This document shows, one piece after another, positions 6,108-21,917 of a stretch of DNA of 40,139 nucleotides. The translations under genes were made by a program, and so were the position numbers. Within the stretch, counting starts at the first letter, position 1. Every line of letters starts with the position of its first letter. Source of the stretch: a virus; IMG/VR virus record IMGVR_UViG_3300032322_001884, positions 1-40,139 of that record. One strand, written 5' to 3'. The notes beneath the pieces are model-generated. The model was given only the letters and a program-made list of their open reading frames with translations, was not told where the DNA came from and searched no databases.

Positions 6108-6117
6108 TTATTTTTCC

Positions 6118-6435
6118 TTAGTTTGCAACGATACCAATAGTGGAACCTAATACTGTGTTTGTCTTGATTTGAATATTACCAATATTTGATAAATTTATAA
6201 AAATACTTTCATCTGGGATAAGATTAATTTCTCTTTGTCTATTTTTTGCTGTACTATTATAAATCGTAATATTACCGAAACCATAATTTCTTAATAAAAC
6301 ACCATTTTTTAAATTTGCGGTAGAAATCCCACTCACAATATCGGTAATACTAGTATAATTTATATTAGTAATAGCAACGGTAGCCATTACAATTGGATTA
6401 TGAATTGGATCGATTAAAATTGAATTTCTAGACAT
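6118..6435 (-). CDS. Small virion-type protein, third member of a tandem paralogous trio
   Basis: A 105-residue protein with no membrane segment, beta-rich composition and many Ile/Asn. It shares the layout of the two genes upstream: residues about 43-54 NGVLLRNYGFGN, then a Tyr/Lys/Asn strand, a L-P-DESIFI element, a short -I-IK- strand and a C-terminus -VAN. The start ATG directly follows the stop of the 6436-6780 gene (TAAATG) with AGGAT upstream, implying translational coupling. It precedes the 1271-residue gene by 10 bases. Small beta-sandwich decoration or fibre-base proteins are plausible, but I recognise no named family. It is the most diverged of the three. Confidence 0.7.
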   Translation of the reverse strand: MSRNSILIDPIHNPIVMATVAITNINYTSITDIVSGISTANLKNGVLLRNYGFGNITIYNSTAKNRQREINLIPDESIFINLSNIGNIQIKTNTVLGSTIGIVAN

Positions 6436-6780
6436 TTAGTATCCTATTACTTCTACATTTAGAGTAGTAGATGGTGCTCTTTTGACTTGTATTTTTGAGT
6501 AGTCTTTACACTCCAAAAATATACTTTCTCCAGAATTTAATAAAAATCCATCATTGGCTCCATGATTTAAATCTGAATATTTAACATAAAAATATGGAGC
6601 GGAACCATATGATATATTTTTAATCAAAAATCCATACTGAGGTGTTATTTGTTCATTTAATACTGTATTTGTACCAATATGAACAAAGCTATCAGCCTCA
6701 GATGTCAAAGTATTTGAGAAAAATACCTTTGGGTTTAAATTTCGTATTATATTTTCTATTCTTCTTGGGCCAATAGGCAT
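6436..6780 (-). CDS. Small virion-type protein, second member of the trio
   Basis: A 114-residue protein. The C-terminal two thirds carries the shared pattern: GFLIKNISYG, then FYVKYSDLNHGANDGFLL, then GESIFLECKDYSKIQVKR and a final -VIGY. The element KYxxLxHGANxGFxL is nearly identical in the gene at 6789-7133, so these two arose by duplication. The N-terminus (MPIGPRRIENIIRNLNP) is unlike the other two. The Shine-Dalgarno sequence GAGGT lies 6 bases before the ATG; it sits 8 bases downstream of the preceding gene in the same late unit. No enzyme motif is visible; a structural role is inferred from neighbours and late promoter. Confidence 0.7.
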   Translation of the reverse strand: MPIGPRRIENIIRNLNPKVFFSNTLTSEADSFVHIGTNTVLNEQITPQYGFLIKNISYGSAPYFYVKYSDLNHGANDGFLLNSGESIFLECKDYSKIQVKRAPSTTLNVEVIGY

Positions 6781-6788
6781 GTTTTACC

Positions 6789-7133
6789 TCAGTTTGCGTA
6801 TACGCTAAATGTAATTCCTGCTGAAGTGGCGATATTCTTAACGAGAATACTCGAAAGGCTGTTGGTTTCAATTAAAACTTGATCTAATTCAGTAAGTCTA
6901 AAACCAGTATTTGCACCGTGATCTAGGGTAGTATACTTAACAGCGATTGGGTTTGGTCCAATATTTTTAACAAGAACACCATCATTTAGAGTGACATCAG
7001 AGGCAGTTGAGCCAGCCCCTGATACGTGAGCATTAATTTCTGTAAATGTATTCGCTGTTGCTCCTATATGACCAACAGTAAACATGGCTTTTGGATTTGT
7101 GATTTGTACTTCTGCTGGAAATGTTCTAGACAT
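6789..7133 (-). CDS. Small virion-type protein, first member of the trio
   Basis: A 114-residue, Thr/Ala/Val-rich protein, first gene after the late promoter at 7155-7162 with a strong AGGAGAAAAT ribosome binding site. Residues about 50-80 read NDGVLVKNIGPNPIAVKY and then LDHGANTGFRL, followed by LDQVLIETNSLSSILVKN and a C-terminal SVYAN, the pattern that defines the trio. No signal peptide. The composition and the spacing of hydrophobic residues suggest a small beta-barrel or sandwich. It probably ends up in the virion in many copies, since it has the best late promoter and ribosome site of this region, but this is inference. No family name is assigned. Confidence 0.72.
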   Translation of the reverse strand: MSRTFPAEVQITNPKAMFTVGHIGATANTFTEINAHVSGAGSTASDVTLNDGVLVKNIGPNPIAVKYTTLDHGANTGFRLTELDQVLIETNSLSSILVKNIATSAGITFSVYAN

Positions 7134-7154: not shown

Positions 7155-7162
7155 TATTTATG
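7155..7162 (-). promoter_or_regulatory. T4-type late promoter CATAAATA
   Basis: CATAAATA on the minus strand, directly downstream of a terminator and 21 bases before the ATG at 7133. The expected start at about 7149 gives a leader of about 16 bases containing AGGAGAAAAT. It should drive the small paralog trio and the 1271-residue gene. Confidence 0.75.
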
Positions 7163-7186
7163 AAAAAATCCCCCTCAACGGGGGAT
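7163..7186 (-). terminator. Rho-independent terminator after the GT2-TPR gene
   Basis: Perfect 7-bp stem ATCCCCC/GGGGGAT (7168-7174 with 7180-7186, 5-base loop) followed on the minus strand by a T run at 7168-7163. It lies 6 bases after the stop of the 7193-8386 gene and abuts the late promoter at 7155-7162. Confidence 0.85.
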
Positions 7187-7192
7187 CGAAAA

Positions 7193-8386
7193 TTATTTCC
7201 TTTTTTCTTTATATTTTTTCTTTTTTTCTACTTTTTCTGGAATGTTTTTACTATTTTGATATTCATGTGCCTCTTTTTGCATTTGAGCCAATATTTGTTC
7301 ATATTGTCTTAAATTTCCATGAACTCTCTCCAATTCTGCTTGTGGAACTCGATTTTCCTTTAGCAATTTCATACAGGCCGCGTGACCAACCAGCGGTTGT
7401 CCTGCATAAAATGCTGTAGAAGCCACTTCATCCAAAATACCGAACTTGTAAATTATGTCTGGAACAAAGAGAATATCATTTGCTGGATATGGTACTTCTG
7501 CTGCCATTTTAGCAAACATATAAGCCAAGGCTGGTTTATTGAATTTCATTCTATAAATCTGGGCAATATGGAAAAGTGGCTCCGCGCGAATTGGTCTATA
7601 ATTGTATGCTTCCATGAATGCCTGTTGAATTTCTATCCATTCACGGTTCATCATACTCTTACAAATAGCAATACGATATAATGAATAATAAACCTCTTCT
7701 TGCCAACCACCCATATCGACACGTTTCATGTAGGCAGCTTCTGCCTTTTCCCATTGCTGAGAATCAAAATAAGATTGTGCTAAGTAGAACTGATATCGAA
7801 TATTTCCAGGTTCTGTTTCAAGAGCCTTTTCTAAAAGTTCTGCATCTTTAGAATATTTTTCTGTTGGAGTGATATTAAGATTTCTAGCACCCATCGTTCT
7901 TGCCACAACTCTATAATTACCATCTAACTTTGTAACTACTGGATTTGGTTTTTCACATTGAGCGTATTCATGAAGAACACCAATATATTTCCAATTAGAT
8001 TCTACCTTATAGATTTGTGTTCTCCACCAAGAAAATTCTTCTCTTCCCATTCGAAGAATATAACCATCTACATTTGAATCTGGTTTAAAATTTAAAGAGC
8101 CAACCAGATAATCGTCAGCATCAATCATGAACGCATATTCTGCTTTTCCTTTACACAAATCTAATGCTTCTGATCTGTTGTGACCAAATGATACCCATGG
8201 TCTTTCATGGAGTTCACCTGGAATATTTTTTTCTTTGAAAAAATTTGTTATAATTTCTTTTGTATTATCTGTGGAACCTGTATCCACGATAATCCAATAG
8301 TCAATCTCTTTATACACTGAATTTAAACATTCAAGAATAATATGAGATTCATTTTTCACGATCATTGAGAGGCATAATTTGTACAT
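7193..8386 (-). CDS. Family 2 glycosyltransferase with C-terminal TPR-like repeats
   Basis: A 397-residue protein. The N-terminal GT-A domain starts LCLSMIVKNES, has DTGSTDNT at residues 35-42 (nucleotide-sugar binding) and a metal-binding DADD at 89-92, placing it in the GT2 superfamily. Residues about 180-290 contain helical pairs of TPR type (for example EPGNIRYQFYLAQSYFDSQQ, WEKAEAAYMK). The C-terminus is a charged, lysine-rich tail (VEKKKKYKEKRK). This two-domain layout is common in GT2 enzymes of phages and bacteria. It ends the glycan island but has its own late box (8405-8412) and terminator, so it can be made independently and late. The substrate is unknown; host glycan or virion protein are both possible. 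Confidence 0.85.
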   Translation of the reverse strand: MYKLCLSMIVKNESHIILECLNSVYKEIDYWIIVDTGSTDNTKEIITNFFKEKNIPGELHERPWVSFGHNRSEALDLCKGKAEYAFMIDADDYLVGSLNFKPDSNVDGYILRMGREEFSWWRTQIYKVESNWKYIGVLHEYAQCEKPNPVVTKLDGNYRVVARTMGARNLNITPTEKYSKDAELLEKALETEPGNIRYQFYLAQSYFDSQQWEKAEAAYMKRVDMGGWQEEVYYSLYRIAICKSMMNREWIEIQQAFMEAYNYRPIRAEPLFHIAQIYRMKFNKPALAYMFAKMAAEVPYPANDILFVPDIIYKFGILDEVASTAFYAGQPLVGHAACMKLLKENRVPQAELERVHGNLRQYEQILAQMQKEAHEYQNSKNIPEKVEKKKKYKEKRK

Positions 8387-8404
8387 TATAAATTCCTTTT
8401 ATCT

Positions 8405-8412
8405 TATTTATA
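8405..8412 (-). promoter_or_regulatory. T4-type late promoter TATAAATA
   Basis: Exact TATAAATA on the minus strand in the 26-base gap between the dehydrase gene and the GT2-TPR gene. The predicted start at about 8399 leaves a leader of about 12 bases with AAAGGAATTT before the ATG at 8386. Confidence 0.7.
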
Positions 8413-9756
8413 TTATACTCTAATATTATTTGCTTTATGAAAGTAATTATTCACAACTTCTTCGATATAATCTAATTGTTCATCTGTTATAACGGGGCTA
8501 GTGCCTAAGAAAAAAGTATCTGTTGTTACTTTAGTTGATATGGGAAAATCTTTTTTCGGGTTTCCAGAATAAATTTCCCCATAAGCTGGTTGAAGTAGCA
8601 CATTTCCACCAAAATAATTTCTAGTCTGTATCTTATTATCTTCAAGATACATAGTAAATTCAGTTCTCTTAAGATATACTCCATCTCTTATTGTCAATGG
8701 GAATGCAAACCAAGAAGGATCTGATTTTTCTGTTGCTTTTGGTAAATGAAATACTTTATCATATTTTGAAAAAATTTGATAAAGACGATCAAAGTTTTTC
8801 TTACGAATTTTAATTATTTCTTCTAATTTTTTAAGTTGTACAAGTCCAATTGCTGCTTGTAAATCTAGTGGTTTTAAATTATAACCAATTTCTTCATAAA
8901 CATATTTGTGGTCAAAAATTTCATCTGGAAAACTTGGCAACCAATTACTAAATCTCTTTTTACACATTCCATTCTTTAAACATGCTGAACCTTTCCCATA
9001 GCAATAACATCCTCGGCCCCATTCTCTTAAACTCTTAATAACAGTTTCTTGTTGTTCTGTATTACATGCAACAAATCCACCTTCACCCATTGTAATATGA
9101 TGTGCTGGATAAAATGAACAAGATGCAAAATCCCCAAAAGATCCTAATAATTTTCCATCGTACATACTCCCAAGAGCGTCACAACAATCTTCCAATAAAA
9201 TAAGATTATATTTTTTAACAATGTCCATTAGACGATCCATATTTGGTGGATTTCCAAGAACATGGGCAAATATTAAAACCTTTGCTCCATTTTTTGCTGC
9301 TTCTTCTACTTGATCTAAATTTAGATTCAAAGTATCAAGTTCAATATCAACAAAAATTGGTTCAAAATTATTTTGAATAATTGGATTTATTGTGGTGGGA
9401 AATCCAGCTGCTGGAGTAATTATTTTCGTTCCTATTGGAAGATTATATAATCTTTTTGATTTAAGAGCTGATACCATCAAAAGATTTGCACTAGATCCAC
9501 TGTTGGTCAGTGCTCCATATTGTTTTCCTAATTTACTTTTAAAATCTCTTTCAAATCTAACTCCATTTTCACCAAGAGCAAACCAACCATCTAAAAGACA
9601 CTCTATTGCAGCTATATACTCATCCTTTGATAAGTATGATCCAGAATATTGGATCCAATCTTTACCAGGAATCCAATTTTTCTTTTTTGCTTCAATTATT
9701 TTTTCAATATTTTTTTTAAGGTCTTCTTTTCCAGAATTCACATTAATTTCAATCAT
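8413..9756 (-). CDS. rfbH: CDP-4-keto-6-deoxy-D-glucose-3-dehydrase (E1, RfbH/DdhC type)
   Basis: A 447-residue member of the DegT/DnrJ/EryC1/StrS fold that uses pyridoxamine phosphate to remove the C3 hydroxyl of a 4-keto-6-deoxy sugar, the committing step to 3,6-dideoxyhexoses such as abequose, paratose or tyvelose. The diagnostic site SFYPAHHITMGEGG (residues 214-227) has His220 in place of the catalytic lysine of aminotransferases, as in E1. Cysteines 192, 250, 252 and 259 (C-X57-C-X-C-X6-C, with an extra Cys265) match the iron-sulphur ligand pattern of E1 apart from one spacing residue. Length equals bacterial E1 (about 437). The downstream reductase E3 and the CDP-sugar synthesis genes are absent here, so host enzymes would have to supply them. 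Its start lies 1 base after the stop of the SDR gene. Confidence 0.9.
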   Translation of the reverse strand: MIEINVNSGKEDLKKNIEKIIEAKKKNWIPGKDWIQYSGSYLSKDEYIAAIECLLDGWFALGENGVRFERDFKSKLGKQYGALTNSGSSANLLMVSALKSKRLYNLPIGTKIITPAAGFPTTINPIIQNNFEPIFVDIELDTLNLNLDQVEEAAKNGAKVLIFAHVLGNPPNMDRLMDIVKKYNLILLEDCCDALGSMYDGKLLGSFGDFASCSFYPAHHITMGEGGFVACNTEQQETVIKSLREWGRGCYCYGKGSACLKNGMCKKRFSNWLPSFPDEIFDHKYVYEEIGYNLKPLDLQAAIGLVQLKKLEEIIKIRKKNFDRLYQIFSKYDKVFHLPKATEKSDPSWFAFPLTIRDGVYLKRTEFTMYLEDNKIQTRNYFGGNVLLQPAYGEIYSGNPKKDFPISTKVTTDTFFLGTSPVITDEQLDYIEEVVNNYFHKANNIRV

Positions 9757-9757
9757 T

Positions 9758-10591
9758 TTAAATTCCTAATATTTTATCAATTGCATCATATACCGTAGTT
9801 GAAGGCTTATATTTTAAGTTAAGCAATTTAGTATTGTCAAGATAAATATTTTCGATCTGGACATTTTTATGAAATTCTGGGGTATCTATAGAAATAATAT
9901 TACTTGTAGATTTTATTTTTTCTTTAGCATAATAAATTATATCTTTAATATATGCTGGTTCTGAATTTGATATATTAATTATTTCGTTATGATTAGCGTT
10001 TGTAATACAAATATCAATAGCACGACAACAATCATCAATAAACATATAATCTCTTATTACTTTACCACTATTATACAATTCTACATCCTCATTATTTTTA
10101 ACTTTATTAATTAAATATTGAATTGCGTTTTTCTTTTTTGATATTTTTTTGTCATTACTTCCAATTATATTGGTAAGCCTTAATATTCTATATTTTATAT
10201 TAAATGTATCGCAATATGATATTAATAATTTTTCAGCGGCGTGTTTTGTTATAGAATAAAATCCTGTTGGATTACATATAGATGTTTCTTTTGCTGGAAA
10301 ATCATTAGTTTTTCCATAAACAAACCAAGAACTTATAAAATTAAAAGTTACTGGTGTTTTTTCGTTTATTTTTTTACATTCTTCTAATACAGAAATAAGT
10401 TTTATCAAATTTGTATTAATATCTAAATATGGATCTGTATAAACATTGTAATTATCAACTGTACTAATAAAATATAAAATATTATTAGTTTTTGGAGTAT
10501 TTTGTGATTTTTCTATAAGGATACATTTATCATTATACATTGATACGAATCTAGAACCAATAAAACCAGAAGAACCATAGATAGAAATCAT
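9758..10591 (-). CDS. NAD-dependent epimerase/dehydratase (extended SDR), likely dideoxysugar reductase or epimerase
   Basis: A 277-residue extended SDR. The Rossmann glycine motif is GSSGFIG (residues 6-12), the Ser of SSWFVYG lies at 87-93, and the catalytic YxxxK is Y112-S-I-T-K116. RDYMFIDD near residue 185 is the usual sugar-nucleotide substrate loop. It starts inside the stop of the upstream glycosyltransferase (ATGA overlap) and is followed 1 base later by the E1 dehydrase. That pairing, and its modest length, fit enzymes like CDP-abequose or CDP-paratose synthase (RfbJ/RfbS) that reduce the 4-keto group after E1. Family membership is clear; the exact sugar product is inference from the neighbour. 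Confidence 0.8.
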   Translation of the reverse strand: MISIYGSSGFIGSRFVSMYNDKCILIEKSQNTPKTNNILYFISTVDNYNVYTDPYLDINTNLIKLISVLEECKKINEKTPVTFNFISSWFVYGKTNDFPAKETSICNPTGFYSITKHAAEKLLISYCDTFNIKYRILRLTNIIGSNDKKISKKKNAIQYLINKVKNNEDVELYNSGKVIRDYMFIDDCCRAIDICITNANHNEIINISNSEPAYIKDIIYYAKEKIKSTSNIISIDTPEFHKNVQIENIYLDNTKLLNLKYKPSTTVYDAIDKILGI

Positions 10592-11463
10592 AAATTATAA
10601 AAAACTTTCAAGATTTGATCAACTCTATTTCCAACTAAATGATTTTCTACTATCTTTTTATGAATATTAGTTGCTAATTTATTTCTATATTCATGATCTT
10701 CATATAATCTAAGCATTTTCTCATAAGCTTCTTGCGCTGTAGAAAAATAACATATATCTTCATCTTCAATAAATAGATCATAAATTCCAGTTTCTGGAGA
10801 AATACGATTTGTTATTATTGCATTTCCACATCCACCAGATTCAAATATTCTACGAGTAATTTCATCAAATCTGGCAAATTGATATGTAAAAGTACCAGAA
10901 TTAAAATAATCTGTATTATCATATCCCCAAACATTCTTATTGACAAATTTATCTTTAAATATTTGTGTGAATTCATTAATCAATGGTCTATAGCCAATAC
11001 AAGAAGTAACACAAATATTTTTCCTATTTGTATTTTCTTTTTTATAAAAAACAGAATCATCACACCAATGAGTCATCCAATGAGAGGGTAATCCTCTAGA
11101 AATATATTCTTTATGACATCTTAAATCGGGTGTAAAGAATGCGTCAACATATTTTATTCTTTCTTGATTGTCATTTTTTGTTTGTGGTTCATCTCCGAGT
11201 TCTAAAAATATTTTAGTTTTTATAGATGATTTTAATTTTTTCAATTCATTATCAAAAATTAAGGAAGGGCCACACCAACAAATAAATATTAAATCATAAT
11301 TATTTGCATCAGATATCAATTTATCCATATTACAATTTTTTGGATCTAAAGCATATTGTTTTACAATATAATTTTTTTTACTGAATGCGTTAACTATTCC
11401 TGATGGTGTACTCCATAAATCAGGTTTATTTTCATCAAAATGATATGCTACAGCAATCTTCAT
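10588..11463 (-). CDS. GT-B glycosyltransferase, CgeB/family 1-like
   Basis: A 291-residue protein with a GT-B C-terminal half: TRRIFESGGCGNAIITNR (residues about 200-217), then ETGIYDLFIEDEDICYF and an EAYEKM helix, the arrangement of CgeB-type family 1 glycosyltransferases where the donor nucleotide sugar is bound. The N-terminal half is a Rossmann-like domain (KIAVAYHFDENKP) with FFTPDLRCHKEYISRGLP before the inter-domain region. No signal peptide or membrane helix, so it is cytoplasmic. It overlaps the upstream gene by 29 bases and the SDR by 4 bases, a tightly coupled operon. Substrate unknown. The protein is rich in Asn, Lys and Ile, as are its neighbours. Confidence 0.75.
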   Translation of the reverse strand: MKIAVAYHFDENKPDLWSTPSGIVNAFSKKNYIVKQYALDPKNCNMDKLISDANNYDLIFICWCGPSLIFDNELKKLKSSIKTKIFLELGDEPQTKNDNQERIKYVDAFFTPDLRCHKEYISRGLPSHWMTHWCDDSVFYKKENTNRKNICVTSCIGYRPLINEFTQIFKDKFVNKNVWGYDNTDYFNSGTFTYQFARFDEITRRIFESGGCGNAIITNRISPETGIYDLFIEDEDICYFSTAQEAYEKMLRLYEDHEYRNKLATNIHKKIVENHLVGNRVDQILKVFYNL

Positions 11464-12121
11464 TCAAATATTCCTTTAAATATTGTTGATATTTTTCTTT
11501 TGGACCTTCCTTATTTTCTTTCCATGCAAATTCTGGAAGATCTGCTGTTACTGACATTCGAGATTTACTCATATTTAAATTGGAGATAGTTTTTACTTTA
11601 TTATTTCTGTGTTTAAAAAGATCAATCAAAAAATCATCCCCTCTCCATATTAAATATTCACAAGGAATATCTTTATATAATTTTTTTTCAAGAAACATCA
11701 TAGAACCAAATCCAATTGTTCGATCTGTATGTGTTATATCATTAAAAGTAGGAATCACTGTATCAGAAAAATTACTATAACATGATACATCTATACCTAT
11801 TATAGATTTTTCTTTTTCCAATTCTTCAAAAGTTATATCTAAAAAATCATATTTATCAACAACAACATCATCACTTAATAAAATAATATATTTATTTTTT
11901 GCAATCTTTACCCCAAGATTCCATGAAGGATTAACATATAAATTTTCTGGTGGTTGAATAATTTTTAATTTATTAATATTTAATTTATTCAACCATTCTG
12001 GAGTTTGTTTTTTATCATTATCAATTAAAATTATTTCTCCTATAATATTACATTCTTGAAGTTTTAATAATTCATTTTTAAAATCAACTTTCCATAATGT
12101 TGGTATAATTACAGTAAACAT
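11435..12121 (-). CDS. GT-A glycosyltransferase, family 2-like
   Basis: About 228 residues from the ATG at 12121 (MFTVIIPTLWK), which places the typical first strand of a GT2 domain at the N-terminus and spaces the start one base after the previous stop. An ATG at 12142 would add seven residues. Features are ILIDNDK in strand 2, NPSWNLGVKIAKNKYI before LLSDDVV (metal-binding DD), and RGDDFLIDLFK, the acidic catalytic-base region. The length is short, close to a bare GT-A domain. It overlaps the next gene (10588-11463) by 29 bases in another frame. The acceptor and donor are unknown. Confidence 0.75.
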   Translation of the reverse strand: MFTVIIPTLWKVDFKNELLKLQECNIIGEIILIDNDKKQTPEWLNKLNINKLKIIQPPENLYVNPSWNLGVKIAKNKYIILLSDDVVVDKYDFLDITFEELEKEKSIIGIDVSCYSNFSDTVIPTFNDITHTDRTIGFGSMMFLEKKLYKDIPCEYLIWRGDDFLIDLFKHRNNKVKTISNLNMSKSRMSVTADLPEFAWKENKEGPKEKYQQYLKEYLNEDCCSISF

Positions 12122-12122
12122 A

Positions 12123-12914
12123 TCAAATAACTCTATATCCATTTAAGTGACTAACAATTGGTTCATCATTCCAATTTCCATAAATAAAACATTTGAAATT
12201 TTTAATTGCTTGATCAATTCCCTGTTTATTTGCATAATATTTATAAAAAACATTAAGCGGTCCTTCCACAAATCCACCCTCTTCGTATGTAGGATAAATA
12301 AAAGTTTTCCACCATTTTTGAAATACTTCAGTTCTACAAATATAAGGATTATTTGACCATTGGGTAGTTCTTAGTAAGGGTATTTTGTCAGAAATCTTTT
12401 CGTCTTTATATTTTATTGGAATAAAATCAACAATATCATTATTATTTTTATGTGCATTAAATCGTATCCAATTTATATTGTCATTATTTTCCATTTCATG
12501 TAATATTTCAATGAGATCAATAAAATTATTAAAAATCCAATCATGTTCCCAAAATAGATAATAATCAGTTTTAACTGAATCAATTAATTTTATAAAGTTA
12601 TTTGGAGCAGTAATTATTGGATCATCAATTTCAGATTCATTAACTATTACTTTTAAATTTGGATAAGTATTTTTAAGATTAGTTAAGTTATCTTCATATT
12701 GTTGATCTATTTTTCTATTTTTTCTTTTATCAAATCCAATATGAATATTAATATCGTTTGGTAAGTTTGTTTTTAATAATAGATCATGAATTACACCATG
12801 AACTAATTTAGCACTAGGTGCGCTTGGTATTATTTGGTTTATTCCAATATATTGACCGTTAGTTTCTGTTTTAATAGAATGTGTAGGAATACAAATTGTA
12901 ATATTATATTTCAT
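12123..12914 (-). CDS. Putative GT-A glycosyltransferase
   Basis: A 263-residue protein beginning with ITICIPTHSI, the first strand of a GT2-like fold. The segment DYYLFWEHDWIF (about residues 137-148) holds an EHD in the place of the usual DXD metal site, and WSNNPYICRTEVFQKWW with EEGGFVEGPLN looks like the acceptor/catalytic region. It is cytoplasmic by composition. It overlaps the upstream gene by 4 bases (ATGA) and so is translationally coupled to it. Its similarity to GT2 is weaker than for its neighbours, and the EHD variant makes the call less certain. It could have lost activity or use a different metal arrangement. Confidence 0.65.
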   Translation of the reverse strand: MKYNITICIPTHSIKTETNGQYIGINQIIPSAPSAKLVHGVIHDLLLKTNLPNDINIHIGFDKRKNRKIDQQYEDNLTNLKNTYPNLKVIVNESEIDDPIITAPNNFIKLIDSVKTDYYLFWEHDWIFNNFIDLIEILHEMENNDNINWIRFNAHKNNNDIVDFIPIKYKDEKISDKIPLLRTTQWSNNPYICRTEVFQKWWKTFIYPTYEEGGFVEGPLNVFYKYYANKQGIDQAIKNFKCFIYGNWNDEPIVSHLNGYRVI

Positions 12915-13873
12915 GTTAAAAATACCTCTTTAAATTTATTCATCACGTTTGTTGGATTATATGGACGAACTATATCAGCATAATAATCAAAATCAATCTT
13001 ATTTCTATTAAAATTATTTACTTGCTCAACAAATTCTTCTTTAGATCTATACCACAATCCTTTATCTCCTAAAAATAAAACATGACCAATATCGTGGGTT
13101 GTGTATGGACAAGAAAGCACAGGTTTTCCGTGATAGCAAAACTCTCCTATGGAACAACTAAAAATTTCTCCCATTTGTCTAGCATGAACCATGGCATCAC
13201 AACAATTTATCCAATTTGATTTTTCTTGCATATCAATAATTTTATCTAAATGAATTATCTGTGGATGTTTGTAAAATACATTAGTGTTGACTAAAACAAA
13301 ATAAACATCCTTTCTAGAATTAACAATATCAATAATCCCTTGGAGTGCAAATCCGATATTGAATTCATCAGAACCACCATGACGACCAAACACAATAGCA
13401 TCATTTGGTATACCATATTTCAATCTAGTTTGTTGCTTTGTTTCATTAGGTTCTGGCATATCAAACATATGAGGAACATCTGGATATTTTCCACCTGTTA
13501 TTTTTTCAGAAACCCATTTTGCCACATATGCATATATATCCCCATGTGGTTCAAAAAATTGAAATACTACATGTACTCCAGTTTTACATGAGTCGGGTTG
13601 AATATTATCTTTGTGACCTGCTTTAATTGCATAAAAAAAATCAACTTTATTTGATTCTAAAATATAATCAATTTCACTAGGATCATTGTATCCAAAAACT
13701 GGAAACAATTTACTAAATTTTTCTATAGCAGATATATCATTCAATTGTGAATTTTTATTATATAAAATAACACTTTCGTTATTTAGCAATGTTTGATTAT
13801 ATTTCGCATAATCAAACATTGCTACTTCTGTACCACGAATACCCAATTGTGAGCTATGAAATGCAATTTTCAT
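12911..13873 (-). CDS. GT-B glycosyltransferase (family 4-like)
   Basis: A 320-residue protein. The N-terminus KIAFHSSQLGIRGTEVAMFDY has the GGxE-like loop of GT4 enzymes in the form RGTEVA. After a linker, LKYGIPNDAIVFGRHGG begins the C-terminal Rossmann domain, and MVHARQMGEIFSCSIGEF with YHGKPVLSC (about residues 234-259) is the GT4 donor-binding E-x7-E type region (GE...GEF). Cytoplasmic, no membrane segment. Coupled by 4-base overlaps on both sides (13870-13873 and 12911-12914). It probably transfers a sugar to a growing surface glycan; the donor cannot be told. Confidence 0.78.
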   Translation of the reverse strand: MKIAFHSSQLGIRGTEVAMFDYAKYNQTLLNNESVILYNKNSQLNDISAIEKFSKLFPVFGYNDPSEIDYILESNKVDFFYAIKAGHKDNIQPDSCKTGVHVVFQFFEPHGDIYAYVAKWVSEKITGGKYPDVPHMFDMPEPNETKQQTRLKYGIPNDAIVFGRHGGSDEFNIGFALQGIIDIVNSRKDVYFVLVNTNVFYKHPQIIHLDKIIDMQEKSNWINCCDAMVHARQMGEIFSCSIGEFCYHGKPVLSCPYTTHDIGHVLFLGDKGLWYRSKEEFVEQVNNFNRNKIDFDYYADIVRPYNPTNVMNKFKEVFLT

Positions 13874-14514
13874 ATAGTTTCCTTTTTAAATAAATCATCG
13901 TTATTACTAATTTTCTCATAATAAATATAACCTTTAGACTTCATAAATGAATAAACACTCTCTTTATATAATGGTCGCGCCGCAGTTTCTATTAAAATAT
14001 AATTTATATTAAATTCATTAAAATTAAAATTTTTAAGAGCTTCTAATTCATATCCTTCTAAATCTAAAGATAAAAAATCCACATGAATAATATTATTTTC
14101 TTTTAATATTGAATTTAAAGTTTTTGCTGGAACTAAAATTTGTTCCCTAGTTTTTATTTTTTGTTTTATTTCATTTTTAAATATTTCGTCATAATAATCT
14201 AAACTAAGCAATGCAGATGAACATGCCATTAGACTCTCACCGCTACAATCTTCATTAAAATTTCCACTAATAGAATCAATAGTTTCATCTGAAGATAATG
14301 CACAGTTGTAAAAAAAATTAGATGGATCTCTATAATATTTACAAGTAAGCATTTTTTTTATATTTGGTTCTATTAAAATTCCTTTCCATCCTAAATTTTT
14401 CTCAAGATATAAAGTATTAGATTGTCTAATTCCATCATTAGCACCAGCTTCAATGTAGAATCCATTTTTAAAATTTAAGTCAGAATGTATTAAATCTGGT
14501 AAAAGTTCACCCAT
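13870..14514 (-). CDS. FkbM family SAM-dependent methyltransferase
   Basis: A 214-residue protein with the FkbM signature: GFYIEAGANDGIRQSNT (residues about 18-34, SAM motif I), ILIEPN at 46-51 (motif II acidic residue), FFYNCALSS (about 67-75) and VDFLSLDLEGYELEALK (about 144-160), then an IETA strand. FkbM enzymes O-methylate sugars in surface polysaccharides, glycolipids or natural products. Placed among glycosyltransferases it most likely methylates a glycan residue, perhaps as a cap. It starts 4 bases after the stop of the family 25 gene and ends overlapping the family 4-like gene. Confidence 0.85.
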   Translation of the reverse strand: MGELLPDLIHSDLNFKNGFYIEAGANDGIRQSNTLYLEKNLGWKGILIEPNIKKMLTCKYYRDPSNFFYNCALSSDETIDSISGNFNEDCSGESLMACSSALLSLDYYDEIFKNEIKQKIKTREQILVPAKTLNSILKENNIIHVDFLSLDLEGYELEALKNFNFNEFNINYILIETAARPLYKESVYSFMKSKGYIYYEKISNNDDLFKKETI

Positions 14515-14518
14515 TTTA

Positions 14519-15214
14519 TTATCTCAATGTGCTTTTAAATTTGCCATACTCAGATCCTTGTTTAACCAAAGACGGTTCCCACCAATAAATTTTATGATTA
14601 TGGTTGTGGTGTTGATATCCAAGTTCCCAATCAGAAACCAAATTAAAAGGAAACCAAGTCGATGCTAAATCTTCAATAGTTTTCTTTTTAAGAATAATCG
14701 AATCTGCACATCTTGATGCTGGATGAGATTTCAAGTAAGCAATTTGATTTGTATTAATACTTGATGGCTTTAGATTTGCACCGCTTCCAAAATAAATAGC
14801 ATCCCAATCATCTGGTGTTTGTGAAAGATATTGATGAAAGCGTTCATTGAAATCATCACAAAGAATAACATCATCCTCAAAAAGTATGAACATATTAGCA
14901 TCAACTTTACTTAGTTGTTGGAATACTTTTCCAAATTTAATAGTCAAGGATATTTCAGCAGAATTACATTTTTTTGGATGGTATCCAAGTGCTGCTGAAC
15001 CCCAAAGACTTACTTTTTTTGTCCATTCATGTGAATCTTCTATACCAGAAACATAATGTGTTTTAATAAATTGATCGGTTAATTCATTTGCATCATAATC
15101 TTCAAAAAATGAATAGTTTGAAAATCTAAATTTATTCATTTGATCTAACATATTTTGTTTACGATCAACTAATCTTTTGCAATGTAATATAACTGTTTGT
15201 ATATCAATACCCAT
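14519..15214 (-). CDS. Glycosyltransferase family 25 (LPS biosynthesis type)
   Basis: About 231 residues. QTVILHCKRLVDRKQNMLDQ near the N-terminus is the GT25 pattern (L-R--R---M), and MFILFEDDVIL (about residues 109-119) holds the EDD metal site of this family. WDAIYFGSGA and SRCADSIILKK are also typical. GT25 enzymes act in LPS and lipo-oligosaccharide outer core synthesis. I chose the ATG at 15214 because GAGG lies about 7 bases upstream; an ATG at 15220 would have none at a proper distance. It overlaps the end of the upstream gene by 11 bases. Confidence 0.82.
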   Translation of the reverse strand: MGIDIQTVILHCKRLVDRKQNMLDQMNKFRFSNYSFFEDYDANELTDQFIKTHYVSGIEDSHEWTKKVSLWGSAALGYHPKKCNSAEISLTIKFGKVFQQLSKVDANMFILFEDDVILCDDFNERFHQYLSQTPDDWDAIYFGSGANLKPSSINTNQIAYLKSHPASRCADSIILKKKTIEDLASTWFPFNLVSDWELGYQHHNHNHKIYWWEPSLVKQGSEYGKFKSTLR

Positions 15215-15905
15215 AATCATCCTCTATCGGGAGTATTCCCATATATTCATCACGACAGTTGTACTTTCTATTTATAGAAGATAGATTATTTTTCAAAACA
15301 CATCGCACGGTGTCTTTGAATAATTCGATATTTTGCTGAAATCTAGTTTGAAACAAATGGTACATCTTTTCATCAAAAATTGTACCAATTCCATAATATC
15401 CATATCCAGTTAATCTCCAGATTCCTCCAGATGGTGTTGATTGAAATGATGTTGGAAAATTCATTTTTAATCGTAACTCTGCGTCAACTGCTGCTCTTGT
15501 AAATTCCTGAGCAATATCAGATCGTTTATTATTTACTGCACTAGGTTTACCAATTCTTTCATAATATGGTCTACTTATAACAAGAAATGAAGGAGCACAA
15601 AATAAATCATGTTTTGCTTTTATACAATTTGTAACTTGTGCATTTCCGACCATATAACCATTTGCACAATACTTAATGGCTTCACTTATATACTCTCCTT
15701 TTAATGGAATACAATCTGCATCGATAAAGATAAAAATATCACTATTAATATCATTTTCAAAGATAGAGTCTATCCATTTTCCATGATGAATATTGGCTTG
15801 TGTATAATTTACTTTTAAATTAAAATAATCCATCACCTTTTTATGTGCATCAATTATTTCGGGATTTGTGTTATCCCAATATAAAGTATTAATACTTATT
15901 TTCAT
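15204..15905 (-). CDS. Putative GT-A glycosyltransferase (DXD type)
   Basis: A 233-residue protein with a GT-A-like N-terminal strand (KISINTLYWDN), the segment IFIFIDADCIPL (residues 57-68) containing the DXD motif D62-A-D64, and a later aromatic region WRLTGYGYYGIG that could shape the acceptor site. No membrane segment. It is not clearly assignable to a numbered family. It overlaps both neighbours: the exostosin-like gene by 4 bases and the family 25 gene by about 11 bases. An exact TATAAATA at 15269-15276 lies inside it but is probably coincidence. Confidence 0.7.
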   Translation of the reverse strand: MKISINTLYWDNTNPEIIDAHKKVMDYFNLKVNYTQANIHHGKWIDSIFENDINSDIFIFIDADCIPLKGEYISEAIKYCANGYMVGNAQVTNCIKAKHDLFCAPSFLVISRPYYERIGKPSAVNNKRSDIAQEFTRAAVDAELRLKMNFPTSFQSTPSGGIWRLTGYGYYGIGTIFDEKMYHLFQTRFQQNIELFKDTVRCVLKNNLSSINRKYNCRDEYMGILPIEDDYGY

Positions 15906-16744
15906 TTTAATCTCTTAATAATATTATTATACATTCCATCCAATGAAAAATGAGTTTTCCATAATTGTTTTAGTTTATCTCTCATTTTTAATATTTCATC
16001 ATCATTATATTTTAATAATATATTAGAAATATTTGGTAATTCTTGCTCAGAAATTAATACAGAAAATTCATTCCAATTTAACTCATCTTGCCAAGGTAAG
16101 TAAAAATTATCTGTTATTATGACAGGAATACTTTCTAATTGCATAGCTTCATATAATCTAAAACTATTTAAACCATATCCACGGGGACATAAGCAAAATT
16201 TACTATGTGCAGTAAGATTAATAAATGTATCAAATTCGTTTTGATTTACCGCTGGTGTCCAATTTTTCATGTAAATGATAATATTTTTATTTTCTTTACA
16301 TGCTTCTATCATTTTAATTCTTATTGGATGAGTTGCTGAACCAACAAAAGAAGCAAGAATTGATTTATCTATATCATTTGGAAGTTCTATAGGAATTTTA
16401 GAGCATACTAATGGAATAGAAGTTATATTATTTCCTCTTATATTACCACCAGCAGAAAAACAAATAGTATCTGGTGGTAAATTTTCAATCGGTGCATCAT
16501 CGTGTTGACTTACTGTAAAGTATTTTTTATCTCTTGGAAGATTATTTAAATATTCTTGTAATCCTTGTCTTTTATTATCACAATATAAAGTTGTCCAACT
16601 TATTCCAATATAATTTCTAGAAATATCTGGATTTTCTTTATTGAATCTTGTAAAAAAATAATCTTCAAGATATTCACCTTTATGATATGGTGGGTATACT
16701 GGATATTCTGGAATAGGTCTAAATTGTTTTTCTGTATAAATCAT
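15902..16744 (-). CDS. Exostosin-family glycosyltransferase (GT47-like)
   Basis: About 280 residues. The C-terminal half has the exostosin core SKFCLCPRGYGLNSFRLYEA (residues 184-203 counting from the ATG at 16753), followed by QLESIPVIITDN, LPW, and a W--FSV segment, as in GT47 enzymes that transfer uronic acid, galactose or other sugars. The ATGA at 16744 overlaps the previous stop and is my chosen start; an ATG at 16753 adds three residues. Cytoplasmic by composition. GT47-like genes occur in viruses and bacteria with surface polysaccharide clusters. Substrate unknown. Confidence 0.8.
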   Translation of the reverse strand: MIYTEKQFRPIPEYPVYPPYHKGEYLEDYFFTRFNKENPDISRNYIGISWTTLYCDNKRQGLQEYLNNLPRDKKYFTVSQHDDAPIENLPPDTICFSAGGNIRGNNITSIPLVCSKIPIELPNDIDKSILASFVGSATHPIRIKMIEACKENKNIIIYMKNWTPAVNQNEFDTFINLTAHSKFCLCPRGYGLNSFRLYEAMQLESIPVIITDNFYLPWQDELNWNEFSVLISEQELPNISNILLKYNDDEILKMRDKLKQLWKTHFSLDGMYNNIIKRLK

Positions 16745-17403
16745 AGATGCCATAATCCATTTTCTTTAAATTTACTAATTTTTTCTTCTATTCCAACCAT
16801 ATGATTATTATGAACTATAATGGCTTTATTTTTTCTATTTTGTCTATAATAAACAAAACCATTTGGAAAAAAATCTTGATCTAATAATCTGCAATTATTT
16901 GCATATTTTATAACTTTTGTATTAATAAGAATCTGATCATCTTCTTCAGTATTTTCACCACATTCAAATATTAATTCTTCACATACTTTTGTATCATTAA
17001 ATACCATAAACCCAGAACAAATATATGAACCAGGTATATCACATTGAAAAAGTATGTGTGTATTATTTTCTATAATTGGTAATGGATTGTGCTTAAATAC
17101 AATATCAGTATCGACCCAACAAAGATTCTTATAATTAGAATAAGTTTCTTTAATCAATTTCCATTTATTTTTAACTATTTTTCTAAATGTGCTATTCGAA
17201 TCAAATGACCAGTTTTGGTATTCTTTTAAATCAATATTATCATATAAAAATGCTCCGTTATAATCTTTCATATTTTCATAAGCATTTTTATCTAAACAAG
17301 CAATAATAAAATCATCTTTATTTAAACCAACAAGCTCGGCAGATTTTAACATATTTCTGCATATTTTTATGCAGCCAGAATTTAATTGTGTTAAAAATTT
17401 CAT
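16741..17403 (-). CDS. Nucleotide-diphospho-sugar transferase (PF03407/GT77-like)
   Basis: A 220-residue protein with KNLCWVDTDIVFKHNP (DTD at residues 98-100), then CSGFMVF (129-135), EEDDQILIN (153-161, catalytic region), CRLLDQDFFPNG (171-182) and IIVHNN (195-200). This order of motifs is that of the PF03407 family. Its neighbour at 17406-18074 has a similar DXD layout but is not close in sequence. It overlaps the GT47-like gene by 4 bases and starts 2 bases after the upstream stop. The product is probably a cytoplasmic enzyme adding a sugar to a lipid- or protein-linked glycan. Confidence 0.8.
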   Translation of the reverse strand: MKFLTQLNSGCIKICRNMLKSAELVGLNKDDFIIACLDKNAYENMKDYNGAFLYDNIDLKEYQNWSFDSNSTFRKIVKNKWKLIKETYSNYKNLCWVDTDIVFKHNPLPIIENNTHILFQCDIPGSYICSGFMVFNDTKVCEELIFECGENTEEDDQILINTKVIKYANNCRLLDQDFFPNGFVYYRQNRKNKAIIVHNNHMVGIEEKISKFKENGLWHL

Positions 17404-17405
17404 AA

Positions 17406-18074
17406 TTAAGTTTCTATAAATTTATTACCAACACTTTGATATTTTATAGCAGAATCATCAAATCCCATTTCTTTTAAAGTTTGTTGTTTTGATTCACTAT
17501 CTGCCAAACCCATTGTTATATATTTCTCACCATTATATTCTTCACCTGGCCATATACAATATGCTTTTGGTAAACATGCAATTCTTATTTTTTTAGTATT
17601 TTTCAAAAATAAAGATACTAAAATTTCATGATCAAATAATTTAACATCTTGATTTTTTACCTGTTCGGATAATTTCATCCATTCATACAAAAATTCAATA
17701 GAAGCTGCTGTATTATTTACAAAAATAGGAGATGCCTTTGGCAAGGACATTGAGGGATCTTCTTTAGTTGGAGTTTTAGGAAAAGCAAATCCTAAATCAC
17801 AATTTGCTGCTAAATCATCAAATACATTTAAAGTTTTATGGATAATAGTATCAATATCCATCCATACAAATGGAATATTAATTTCCTTTGCCATTTCATA
17901 AATAAATCTTGGTTTTGATAAGCAATTAGATCTATAATCACCTTTAGATTGAAGTTCTCTTATTATAAAGGGAATATTTAAATCTTTACAATTTTTAATG
18001 AATCGCTTTGCATGATCGCTATAATATGTTCTACCATCTATATCAGCAAAAAAACTTACTAAAGGTGTTTTCAT
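17406..18074 (-). CDS. Putative nucleotide-diphospho-sugar transferase (DXD type)
   Basis: A 222-residue GT-A-like protein. TPLVSFFADIDGRTYYSDHAK is the first strand and loop; NIPFVWMDIDTIIHK (residues 66-80) carries the DID metal site; SPIFVNNTAASIEFLYEW and LFDHEILVSLF resemble the acceptor and catalytic segments of PF03407-type enzymes. It overlaps the upstream GT10 gene by 4 bases and precedes the related gene at 16741-17403 by 2 bases. Donor and acceptor cannot be told. Confidence 0.72.
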   Translation of the reverse strand: MKTPLVSFFADIDGRTYYSDHAKRFIKNCKDLNIPFIIRELQSKGDYRSNCLSKPRFIYEMAKEINIPFVWMDIDTIIHKTLNVFDDLAANCDLGFAFPKTPTKEDPSMSLPKASPIFVNNTAASIEFLYEWMKLSEQVKNQDVKLFDHEILVSLFLKNTKKIRIACLPKAYCIWPGEEYNGEKYITMGLADSESKQQTLKEMGFDDSAIKYQSVGNKFIET

Positions 18075-18913
18075 AGTTGTTTTATCAGATCATAAAGGAT
18101 ATCATCTGACCCTCGCATTTTTTGTATTATATCAAAATTTTCTTTTATTGCATCTATTTTACTATAATAATAATCAGATGTCAATAAATTTAAATCTATT
18201 TGATCATTGATTATTATCATACCATCTGTGTTGAAATACTTACCAATATCAGGAGCACCCCAATATACTGGTATAGTTCCAGTTGCAAAACAATCTGTTA
18301 ATTTTTCTGTAAAATAAGTTTCATACTTGTCATTTTCTATGACAATCTGAAACATATAATCATTAAGATATTGAAATTTTGAATCCCATGGTGAATCTGC
18401 TGAACCAACTCTTTGACTGTTGGCTGCTCCACCAAATATATCAATTTTACTTTTAAGATTCTCAGCTATTTGGTGGCGTAAAGCATGACCAGGAGTTACT
18501 TTTTTCGATGAAGCAAACATCGAACATAATTTAGACTTTGAAAAAACTTTATGTTCTTTTACCCAAGGTAAGTTACTTCCAGCAAATGAGAAATGAAATT
18601 TCGAACTTTTCTTGCAATATTCCCTATCTGCAAAATAAATTGCATCATAACTTTCTTCAAGTTGTGGGATGAGTTGATCAAGCACACTGCGAGGTAATGA
18701 CCAAGCATGAAAAATAGCCCTTGATTCACAGATCCATGCAATTTTTTTCTCATCTGGTTTTTTCCTATAATTTATTCCATGTGGAATAGCAGAATCAATA
18801 AAAACTTTGATTGGACTGTCTTCTTGCGTCCATTCAAAATTTTTAGGTTTTAGGTTAGAATTAGAAGAAAAGTGAATAGAAAAAGGAGCACCGATTGCTT
18901 GCACATATTCCAT
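18071..18913 (-). CDS. Glycosyltransferase family 10 (fucosyltransferase-like)
   Basis: A 280-residue protein. The family 10 C-terminal motif is complete: FQIVIENDKYETYFTEKLTD (residues 188-207; EN at 193-194, TEKL at 202-205), then GTIPVYWGAPDIGKYF (212-227). GT10 enzymes transfer fucose, or occasionally other 6-deoxysugars, from GDP-sugars onto LPS or glycan acceptors. Residues 55-75 (EKKIAWICESR) match the N-terminal domain. It is the first gene of the glycan island, 26 bases after regA, with AAAGGAT upstream of its ATG but no clear promoter of its own, so it probably depends on transcription through regA. Confidence 0.87.
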   Translation of the reverse strand: MEYVQAIGAPFSIHFSSNSNLKPKNFEWTQEDSPIKVFIDSAIPHGINYRKKPDEKKIAWICESRAIFHAWSLPRSVLDQLIPQLEESYDAIYFADREYCKKSSKFHFSFAGSNLPWVKEHKVFSKSKLCSMFASSKKVTPGHALRHQIAENLKSKIDIFGGAANSQRVGSADSPWDSKFQYLNDYMFQIVIENDKYETYFTEKLTDCFATGTIPVYWGAPDIGKYFNTDGMIIINDQIDLNLLTSDYYYSKIDAIKENFDIIQKMRGSDDILYDLIKQL

Positions 18914-18939
18914 AGTATAAATCCTTTTATCTATTTAGG

Positions 18940-19344
18940 TCACTTACCTATGTGATACTTAGGTATCAATTGCCATTCTTGTTTTTCTTTATGTGGTATA
19001 ATTTTAAGTCTAGCCAAAGAAATCTGTGGTTCTTTATATTCATCTGGATCTACTGGATCTATTAGATTCCATTCAACCAAAAGCCTTACAATGGTATTTC
19101 TACGACCTATATCATCATTTGATATGTCGCTTTCAAGACCATCAAGTAAGAACATTTCTTTAAAATGCATAATCGCGTATCTACCACGTTTATGTAAAAT
19201 ATGACAAGATTGGAATAATTTCTTCTCCTTTTTGGAAGAAACTCCAATTCTTGTCAATGTTTCTTTTACCTTAAGAAAATCTTCTTTATTTTTAAGATTA
19301 ATCTCTACACCAAGGCCATCAAAAATATCGTCATCTTCTGTCAT
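18940..19344 (-). CDS. regA: RegA translational repressor
   Basis: A 134-residue homologue of T4 RegA (122 aa), the RNA-binding protein that blocks ribosome binding on early mRNAs, including its own. The core reads VEINLKNKEDFLKVKETLTR, SCHILHKRGRYAIMHFKEMF, RRNTIVRLLVEW and a C-terminal WQLIPKYHIGK, all closely matching T4. The N-terminus carries about eleven extra, acidic residues (TEDDDIFDGLG). The ATG at 19344 has GGAGTT upstream and lies after a late box at 19367-19374. It follows gene 62 at a 33-base gap, as in T4. In T4-like phages DNA polymerase (gene 43) often comes next; here the glycan island does. Confidence 0.95.
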   Translation of the reverse strand: MTEDDDIFDGLGVEINLKNKEDFLKVKETLTRIGVSSKKEKKLFQSCHILHKRGRYAIMHFKEMFLLDGLESDISNDDIGRRNTIVRLLVEWNLIDPVDPDEYKEPQISLARLKIIPHKEKQEWQLIPKYHIGK

Positions 19345-19366
19345 TTTAACTCCATAAAATATAAAT

Positions 19367-19374
19367 TATTTATA
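19367..19374 (-). promoter_or_regulatory. T4-type late promoter TATAAATA upstream of regA
   Basis: Exact TATAAATA on the minus strand in the gap between gene 62 and regA. The predicted start is near 19361, leaving a leader of about 16 bases with a GGAG ribosome site. It could carry late transcription through regA into the glycan island, for which no other promoter is evident until 8405. Confidence 0.6.
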
Positions 19375-19377
19375 TTT

Positions 19378-19755
19378 TTAGGACTTTCCACCCTTATTTA
19401 ATGACTCTTTTATGGCCTCTAGCTGGCTTTCTGAAAGGATTTTAGCTACTTCCATGGCCTTGGTTCTGGAATAGCCATAAAACTCCATAATAGGCTCTAT
19501 AGAGCCTTTATCGTCTTTATGCCACTTTGCATATCTATTACCCTTTGGTAAGGAGTACAGATAATAATCATACTGCATTTTCTTATCAAGATTGGGCTTT
19601 AAATTCATAAAATTAGCATGAAAAATAGCATCTTTATGATAAGAAAGTGACTTATTGATAACAAAAGGGATATAACCCCGTTCTCCCTGTTCATTTGAAC
19701 CGATTATATCCTTTTTGGATTTATTAATAGAATTTAAGTATTCACCAAGATCCAT
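19378..19755 (-). CDS. gp62: Clamp loader small subunit (gp62)
   Basis: A 125-residue protein, shorter than T4 gp62 (187 aa) but with the recognisable core YIPFVINKSLSYHKDAIFHA (residues about 29-48) and LDKKMQYDYYLYSLPKGNRY. It acts with four gp44 subunits to load the sliding clamp. The start codon shares a base with the stop of gene 44 (overlap at 19755), the same translational coupling as in T4. A C-terminal region equivalent to the last part of T4 gp62 is missing, as is usual in marine T4-like phages. Confidence 0.9.
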   Translation of the reverse strand: MDLGEYLNSINKSKKDIIGSNEQGERGYIPFVINKSLSYHKDAIFHANFMNLKPNLDKKMQYDYYLYSLPKGNRYAKWHKDDKGSIEPIMEFYGYSRTKAMEVAKILSESQLEAIKESLNKGGKS

Positions 19756-20705
19756 TAGTTAAACTCACAACTCATCATCAATTCTACCAAACATGCTACC
19801 ATATTAATTTCCTGATCTGCGACAAATGCAGCCTTGTATTGGTATTCCCCGATCACAATAATAGCCTGTGGAATAGATTGCTTAGTCAGAACTTCTGCTA
19901 AATTATCATAGATTTTTCGAAAAATATCCGTGTGGGATAGATGGACATTAGCCGCTACCCACTTACGGACAGAAGAAAAGTCCTTCTTTTTCATAAAGTC
20001 AATAAGATTTTTGACTTCCAAATCTGTAACATTTACCAAAATACCATGATCAATAATTCCAGATACAGAATATCGCTGAAGTTCATTCAAAATTCTACGA
20101 AAATCTGGGAAGTGCTTATTGATAAGCTTTGCTAGAACTTGAGATTCATATTTAATCTTTTCATTCTTAAGAATTTGCTCACAACGAGTATAGAGTTGTG
20201 TACAGATTTGCCTCTTTTCCTCTTGAGAAACTGTAAAGTCAATACAAGTACATCGTGAATGAATAGGTTCAATAATCCTAGACTTGTAGTTGCAAGTAAT
20301 AATAAATCGACAATTATTTGCAAACTCTTCAATTGCTCCACGAAGGGCTGGTTGAATACTATTCGCATTTGAATAGTCAAACTCGTCAAGAATAACTACT
20401 TTCCTGACACCATTAGAAAAAGAAACTGTACTGGCAAACTGCCGAATCTTTGTGCGTAGAGTATCAATATTACCCTCTTCAGAGCAATTGATGATGATCC
20501 AATCACATCCCATTTCATTGCATAATGCTTTGGCTACTGTAGTCTTTCCAGTTCCAGCAGTGCCAAAAAGCAATAAATTTTGTGGTTCACCTTTAGCAAC
20601 CATGTCCTTGAAGGTTTGCTTCAAGGACATGGGAAGAATGCATTCATCGATAGTCTTGGGTCGATATTTCTCTACAAAGAGAAAGTGTTCTGGGTTTGTT
20701 TTCAT
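19755..20705 (-). CDS. gp44: Clamp loader large subunit, AAA+ ATPase (gp44)
   Basis: A 316-residue AAA+ protein (T4 gp44 is 319). Walker A is GTAGTGKTT (residues 48-56), Walker B is VVILDEFD (103-110), sensor I is ITCNYKSR (136-143) and the clamp-loader SRC motif lies at 150-152. VEKYRPKTIDECILP at 11-25 is the typical N-terminus. It opens and loads gp45 onto primer-template DNA with ATP. It lies 6 bases downstream of gene 45 and overlaps gene 62 by one base. It has no clear Shine-Dalgarno sequence, consistent with coupling to gene 45 translation. Confidence 0.96.
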   Translation of the reverse strand: MKTNPEHFLFVEKYRPKTIDECILPMSLKQTFKDMVAKGEPQNLLLFGTAGTGKTTVAKALCNEMGCDWIIINCSEEGNIDTLRTKIRQFASTVSFSNGVRKVVILDEFDYSNANSIQPALRGAIEEFANNCRFIITCNYKSRIIEPIHSRCTCIDFTVSQEEKRQICTQLYTRCEQILKNEKIKYESQVLAKLINKHFPDFRRILNELQRYSVSGIIDHGILVNVTDLEVKNLIDFMKKKDFSSVRKWVAANVHLSHTDIFRKIYDNLAEVLTKQSIPQAIIVIGEYQYKAAFVADQEINMVACLVELMMSCEFN

Positions 20706-20711
20706 AATAAA

Positions 20712-21398: not shown

Positions 21399-21407
21399 AG
21401 TAATCTT

Positions 21408-21904: not shown

Positions 21905-21909
21905 AATAA

Positions 21910-21917
21910 TATTTATG
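21910..21917 (-). promoter_or_regulatory. T4-type late promoter CATAAATA, leaderless spacing
   Basis: CATAAATA on the minus strand overlapping the stop codon of gene 46 (21913-21915). Only TTATT separates it from the ATG at 21904, so T4 geometry puts the transcription start on the A of the start codon. Confidence 0.65.

Follow-up and report, generated by a model that had tools for sequence, protein, structure and literature searches.

What does a T4-like phage make with fourteen consecutive sugar genes placed directly behind regA, and to which molecule is the product attached? This question is raised by the stretch of DNA analysed here (40,139 nucleotides; hereafter the window), which is the entire 40-kb contig of an uncultured T4-like virus whose minus strand carries the core genes gp20-23, uvsY/W, gp55, gp46/47, gp45/44/62 and regA. 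An initial annotation had described a fourteen-gene glycan island after regA that encodes an oligosaccharide pathway, with host LPS, DNA or a virion protein as candidate acceptors. Both the island and this general reading of it were upheld, and the analysis below concerns its organization, its expression and the choice between the acceptors.

The island consists of fourteen open reading frames (g01 to g14, all on the minus strand) that occupy positions 7193 to 18913 without a break, starting 26 nt past the end of regA (18940..19344, minus strand; PF01818, 1.3e-39). The GC content of its interior is 24-29%, versus 31-36% on both sides. Six glycosyltransferases exceed the Pfam cut-offs, namely g01 (GT10; 18071..18913; PF00852, 1.6e-9), g03 (PF03407 nucleotide-sugar transferase; 16741..17403; 3.6e-13), g04 (GT47/exostosin; 15902..16753; PF03016, 4.4e-28), g10 (GT2; 11435..12142; PF00535, 4.5e-8), g11 (CgeB-like, Glyco_trans_1_2; 10588..11463; PF13524, 8.1e-16) and g14 (GT2; 7193..8386). 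The product of g02 (17406..18074) matched nothing by sequence and is assigned to the GT-A glycosyltransferases by its AF2 model (pLDDT 89.7), whose closest PDB folds are BoGT6a and PBCV-1 A64R; as the identity is 12%, this is a likeness at the level of the fold only. The match of g06 (14519..15220) to GT25 is marginally under the cut-off (PF01755, 5.9e-5), and this gene also matches phage glucosyltransferase PHROGs. Three further genes gave no match in the family-library search, and their labels as putative glycosyltransferases come from motifs and context: g05 (GT-A; 15204..15905; FIDAD motif), g08 (GT-B; 12911..13873; 35-41% homologues in L117 and L118) and g09 (GT2-like; 12123..12914; EHDW motif). 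Hence, of the eleven glycosyltransferases initially claimed, the six Pfam assignments and g02 stand, g06 is marginal, and g05, g08 and g09 are unconfirmed. The other products over the Pfam cut-offs are the single FkbM methyltransferase, g07 (13870..14514; PF05050, 1.4e-20), as had been stated, g12, a compact SDR that is a probable NDP-deoxysugar reductase/epimerase (9758..10591; PF01370, 2e-30), and g13, a DegT-fold enzyme (8413..9756). The junctions had been described as mostly 4-base overlaps, but an exact 4-bp overlap is found at only five of the 13, and an overlap of any length at nine.

The initial annotation had proposed a comparison of the regA-gene 43 interval among related phages. Two IMG/VR scans, with g01 and regA as queries, yielded more than 100 loci, and about 60 distinct related uncultured contigs document the site; for regA, the best 80 of 211 relatives were used, and the result therefore describes the near clade. 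A g01 or g02 homologue lies within the first three genes past regA in 61 of the 62 distinct contigs with sequence beyond regA, and because the same site recurs in this way, the island is more than a chance arrangement. The g01/g02 arrangement was seen again in the loci found through the regA query alone, which carries no bias towards the island. Twelve longer related contigs were retrieved, and in the ten in which both regA and g14 could be placed, regA is followed without exception by 11-17 genes on the same strand and then by g14. Every complete island checked ends in g14, past which, where the sequence extends, fibre-like or virion genes are found; where these were examined, the matches were to tail-fibre and collagen-like families. 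The right flank in the window (2292..7133, minus strand) encodes a 1271-aa protein and three small proteins related to one another, none with a family match; they are presumed fibre or virion genes on account of syntenic relatives and of fibre-like genes at the equivalent place in L145.

In cultured relatives, Hsp20, dUTPase or small genes are found past regA, and gene 43, where seen, lies within a few kb. In the island clade, gene 43 is roughly 20-30 kb past regA, beyond both the island and the fibre-like genes, and it is outside the window. The term "inserted" is thus apt in relation to the cultured relatives, in which gene 43 is nearer to regA, but less so within the clade, where the locus is general and only its interior is exchanged. 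A near-identity DNA search with the island gave no match among 50,697 phage records, nor did a tblastn search with g02, and none of the cultured phages in the collection searched belongs to the clade. Judged from the sequences of its site, ends and interior, the island represents one allele of a glycan locus that has a fixed site, conserved ends and a variable middle in a T4-like (Kyanoviridae-like) uncultured clade.

Several observations were made beside the locus. In the window, the three tandem small proteins at 6118-7133 (105-114 aa), ahead of the 1271-aa protein, have C-terminal halves that are alike, and are possibly repeated decoration or fibre proteins and candidate acceptors. Downstream of the island of contig G013 (L160:10909-14531), sulfotransferase-domain and FkbM-domain proteins are encoded near an RCC1-repeat protein, which suggests further surface modification genes. 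An ORF of 254-278 aa sits between g01 and g02 in L019, L020, L028, L038, L040, L041, L046 and L108. In contig G006, behind L016, extra ORFs break up the gp46-gp45 block and may be a mobile or homing insert.

The variability of the middle is evident from the 46 related islands, whose 526 genes make up 136 families, including 52 singletons. The only general families are those of the left anchors g01 (44 of 46 islands) and g02 (42 of 46) and, in complete islands, that of the right anchor g14, whereas g03 to g11 belong to the variable part. In L004, identity to the window is 96.3% over 16759-23399 and 89% at the start of g14, but only 80% in the g12-g13 pair, and nothing detectable is common over 10593-15901. 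The core of L100 is just about 67-72% identical to that of the window, yet its g12-g13 pair, which moves as a unit, is 90% identical in nucleotide sequence and a GT10 gene is 90% identical to g01. These patterns indicate that segments pass from one phage lineage to another and leave the ends in place. Many islands have two GT10 paralogues among their first three genes; at L100:10405-12750, it is the second that is 90% identical to the window's g01 at the nucleotide level, the first being about 53% identical in protein, and the pair can be read as a gene-level exchange at the constant end. Some related islands also hold TPP-enzyme, TylF and cupin genes.

The upstream regions were then searched for the motif NATAAATA, which corresponds to the known T4 late -10 element, the sites being sequence matches rather than mapped starts. 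Positions -45 to -18 were considered, upstream sequences were thinned to less than 80% identity, and expectations were obtained from shuffles. The motif precedes regA in 20 of 27 thinned upstream sequences (1.1 expected) and g14 in 10 of 15 relatives (0.67 expected); it is also found before gp23 (4/7) and o114b (3/3). By comparison, it occurs in only 1 of 138 pooled upstream sequences of gp44, gp45, gp46, gp47, gp55 and gp62, and in only 1 of 97 from the island interior (g02-g13). In the window, TATAAATA lies 30 nt ahead of regA in the gp62-regA gap (19367..19374, minus strand), where it would serve regA and the island in common, and again ahead of g14 (8405..8412, minus strand). An intrinsic terminator, GATCCCCCGTTGAGGGGGATT-TTTT (7167..7187, minus strand), closes the island, and a further late motif, CATAAATA (7155..7162, minus strand), opens the next transcription unit. 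A strong late promoter immediately ahead of g01 was also considered; the window has a degenerate, late-motif-like CCTAAATA there, 26 nt ahead of the gene (18932..18939, minus strand), and the exact TATAAATA is present in some relatives, but this weak signal amounts to 2 of 40 thinned upstream sequences and the candidate was dropped. A sigma-70 scan performed no better than shuffles. The pattern suggests that the locus is transcribed late, alongside the capsid and tail genes.

Four cultured relatives that do not have the island (S-RIM2, S-SM2, DSL-LC03 and phiM19) show no such motif ahead of regA, and their gp62 and regA abut or overlap. Methylophilales phage Melnitz-3 has the motif ahead of gp22 and gp23. 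The best GT10 match lies in the LPS-type sugar cluster of the cultured cyanophage Sf-CH8, and not one gene start of this cluster has the motif. The position of regA behind a late motif and a short gap after gp62 in the island clade (window 19344-19378) points to late expression of RegA, which is unexpected for a translational repressor of early genes. Additionally, TATAAATA or CATAAATA lies just 13-14 nt ahead of the start codons of the second tail-tube gene, o189 and w105 (window positions 28684-28697, 2219-2233 and 21904-21917); these close-in sites, into which the usual leader would not fit, are kept in relatives, sometimes past a hairpin.

Two sugar-nucleotide enzymes had been predicted, which holds for g12 and g13 by Pfam, but g13 is not an ordinary aminotransferase. 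It passes the RfbH equivalog model NF011936 (472.8 bits, cut-off 423) and matches PDB 3bcx at 8e-106; the catalytic His that replaces the PLP-binding Lys is kept, as are four Cys for the Fe-S cluster (YPAHHITMGEGG, WGRGCYCYGKGSACLKNGMC). These features identify g13, as far as sequence can, as an RfbH-type CDP-4-keto-6-deoxyglucose 3-dehydratase (E1), and a CDP-derived 3,6-dideoxyhexose branch is therefore predicted. As no match over the cut-off to TIGR02622 or TIGR02623 (RfbF/RfbG, for the complete CDP-glucose pathway) was found in 38 relatives, CDP-4-keto-6-deoxyglucose, if used, must be supplied by the host. As to the identity of that host, one scan of genome contigs with g13 turned up just two relatives, a partial one at 64% in a Flavobacteriales MAG and one at 35% in a Pelagibacteraceae genome, neither strong enough to name a host; the psbA family PF00124, sought as a sign of a cyanobacterial host, is not present in the 12 related contigs, and gp23 is about 55-57% identical to the capsid proteins of Methylophilales phages, cyanophages and Pelagibacter phages alike.

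None of the 526 proteins of the 46 related islands has two or more strongly hydrophobic, presumably membrane-spanning segments, and so these islands encode no flippase, polymerase or membrane initiator. The original remark that no flippase, polymerase or lipid-linked initiating transferase is seen can thus be extended to all 46 islands, and the polytopic flippase, polymerase or transferase that marks gtrABC serotype conversion or Wzx-Wzy systems is found in 0 of 526 proteins.

The enzyme that might start the chain is g14, which is 57-87% identical across 14 relatives. Its model (pLDDT 89.5) has a GT2 domain with a DxD motif and a C-terminal TPR region, and its top PDB folds are SunS/ThuS (E 3e-17), aligned across GT2 and TPR jointly; the domain orientation differs, giving an rmsd of 13-15 A at full length and about 3.5 A with a shorter SunS construct. 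The top matches in a profile search were the flagellin O-GlcNAc transferase GmaR (2.8e-14) and SunS (2.8e-12). However, with 45 bits against a cut-off of 350, g14 falls far short of the SunS equivalog model, and is similar to SunS in architecture without being a SunS. Lower-ranked PDB fold matches include wall-teichoic-acid enzymes, and among viral models, giant-virus GT2 proteins are closest (36-41% identity). In GmaR, the GT2 domain glycosylates flagellin and the TPR region has a proposed role in acceptor binding (PMC9638930). On these grounds g14 is predicted to be a protein-priming glycosyltransferase.

We consider the chances slightly better than even that the locus encodes a late, lipid-free pathway, primed by g14, that places a variable glycan on a phage protein, most likely of the virion. 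In such a pathway, late transcription would bring the enzymes and the virion proteins together, and cytoplasmic g14 would add the first sugar to the phage protein, held by the TPR arm. Constant residues would be added by g01 and g02, and the variable enzymes would extend and methylate an allele-specific chain, which in this phage probably includes a 3,6-dideoxyhexose, CDP-derived and produced from an intermediate of the host. With acceptor, enzymes and nucleotide sugars all in the cytoplasm, the pathway would need neither a lipid carrier nor a flippase. The sugar-bearing protein would belong to the virion, with a protein of the capsid surface or of a fibre as the most likely candidate, and swapping the interior would change the sugar "serotype" of the particle. 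Superinfection exclusion or a sugar coat on the virion had been named as possible uses; the late motifs, the SunS/GmaR-like conserved g14 and the fibre-like or virion neighbours favour a virion or other phage protein and speak against early exclusion.

Modification of the host surface is the main rival, and we hold it to be possible but rather unlikely. In the cytoplasm, the enzymes would extend or cap lipid-linked LPS or core oligosaccharide of the host, whose flippase and ligase would export the product, and masked receptors would result in superinfection exclusion or in progeny being released from debris. Enzymes of the GT25 and GT10 types are frequent in LPS loci, the fibre-like neighbours recognise surfaces, and g13 is an O-antigen enzyme; that RfbH sugars are known above all as parts of O-antigens is in keeping with host LPS as acceptor. 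It is also the published view of P-SSM2-type and pelagimyophage glycosyltransferase clusters (PMC7824862, PMC7029224). However, superinfection exclusion normally needs early expression and the motifs at both island ends are late, the most conserved enzyme resembles protein glycosyltransferases, and the 46 islands are devoid of membrane Gtr-like or flippase genes. Late genes could change the host surface too, for instance to keep progeny off debris, GT2+TPR proteins could act on non-protein acceptors, and the bit score of g14 against the SunS model is low.

A non-virion phage product, a host protein such as pilin or flagellin, or a small glycosylated metabolite appears improbable as acceptor or product. 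In its favour, SunS and GmaR, the best relatives of g14, act on a bacteriocin peptide and on flagellin, respectively, and TPP-enzyme, TylF and cupin genes are present in some islands, but fibre-like and virion genes flank the complete islands checked, and no bacteriocin-like precursor was noticed beside the locus. DNA hypermodification, in which glycans on modified pyrimidines would block restriction, is very improbable, since the thymidylate-synthase/dCMP-hydroxymethylase family PF00303, to which the dCMP hydroxymethylase of T-even DNA glycosylation belongs, was found in none of the 12 related contigs (the longest 154 kb, all incomplete), such modification needs expression during replication whereas the motif pattern is late, and a dozen swapped enzymes per allele exceed the known DNA-sugar systems. 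In its favour, phages can hypermodify DNA with diverse glycans (cited in PMC12619734).

For glycosyltransferase clusters of environmental T4-like phages, the usual but untested explanation is that they remodel host LPS, and the present locus provides a concrete alternative to it. Its late motifs, its conserved primer of the protein type and its swappable enzymes beside fibre-like genes suggest that the virions are glycosylated and that their sugar serotypes can be exchanged. If true, this would have consequences for adsorption, for grazing and for the resistance of particles to proteases or antibodies, and the locus would be a source of soluble oligosaccharide enzymes that is genetically simple. 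Moreover, the conservation of g14 makes the acceptor question testable with a single enzyme.

Phage glycosyltransferase clusters and virion glycosylation as such are already known. The P-SSM2-type LPS/capsule clusters of jumbo cyanophages are large, contain varied glycosyltransferases and sugar-nucleotide enzymes, and are polymorphic between related viruses (PMC7824862); the same trait, a polymorphic cluster of soluble glycosyltransferase and sugar genes in a T4-like phage, is present here. The differences are the fixed site after regA, the two constant glycosyltransferases at one end and GT2+TPR at the other, and the late motifs, which the gene starts of the Sf-CH8 cluster lack. Pelagimyophages, which are T4-like phages of aquatic bacteria, likewise have hypervariable glycosyltransferase genes close to those for tail fibres; their host recognition cluster, situated between VrlC and gp14, mixes fibres with glycosyltransferases (PMC7029224), but here only glycan genes lie between regA and g14, and the left boundary is regA followed by g01/g02 (61/62 contigs) instead of VrlC in a structural region. 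In mycobacteriophages, phage-encoded glycosyltransferases glycosylate capsid and tail-tube protein (Freeman 2023, as cited in PMC12363180 and PMC12619734), with few glycosyltransferases, compared to 11-17 allele-varying genes here. Chloroviruses and mimivirus decorate virion proteins by means of virus-coded glycosyltransferases and rare-sugar enzymes (PMC4691112), and the fold of g02 is near A64R and g14 is near giant-virus GT2 proteins; these are eukaryotic viruses without a fixed-end swapped locus, and the systems need not be homologous. With SunS/ThuS and GmaR, which act on proteins, g14 shares solubility, a GT2 domain with DxD and a helical TPR arm, at a score below the SunS equivalog cut-off. 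Bacterial O-antigen and capsule loci have in common with the island the constant ends, the exchangeable middle and a 3,6-dideoxyhexose enzyme, but the island is without Wzx, Wzy, ABC exporter and membrane initiator. Tentatively, and with somewhat less than an even chance of being right, the locus may be the tailed-phage counterpart of a bacterial serotype locus, in which a conserved GT2+TPR primer and exchangeable enzymes would build, by a lipid-free route in the cytoplasm, allele-specific oligosaccharides on a virion protein, in some phages with a 3,6-dideoxyhexose, and coats would be swapped by recombination among aquatic T4-like phages. What is new in comparison with all of these systems is a fixed locus with conserved ends and a swappable middle, combined with late motifs and a protein-type primer.
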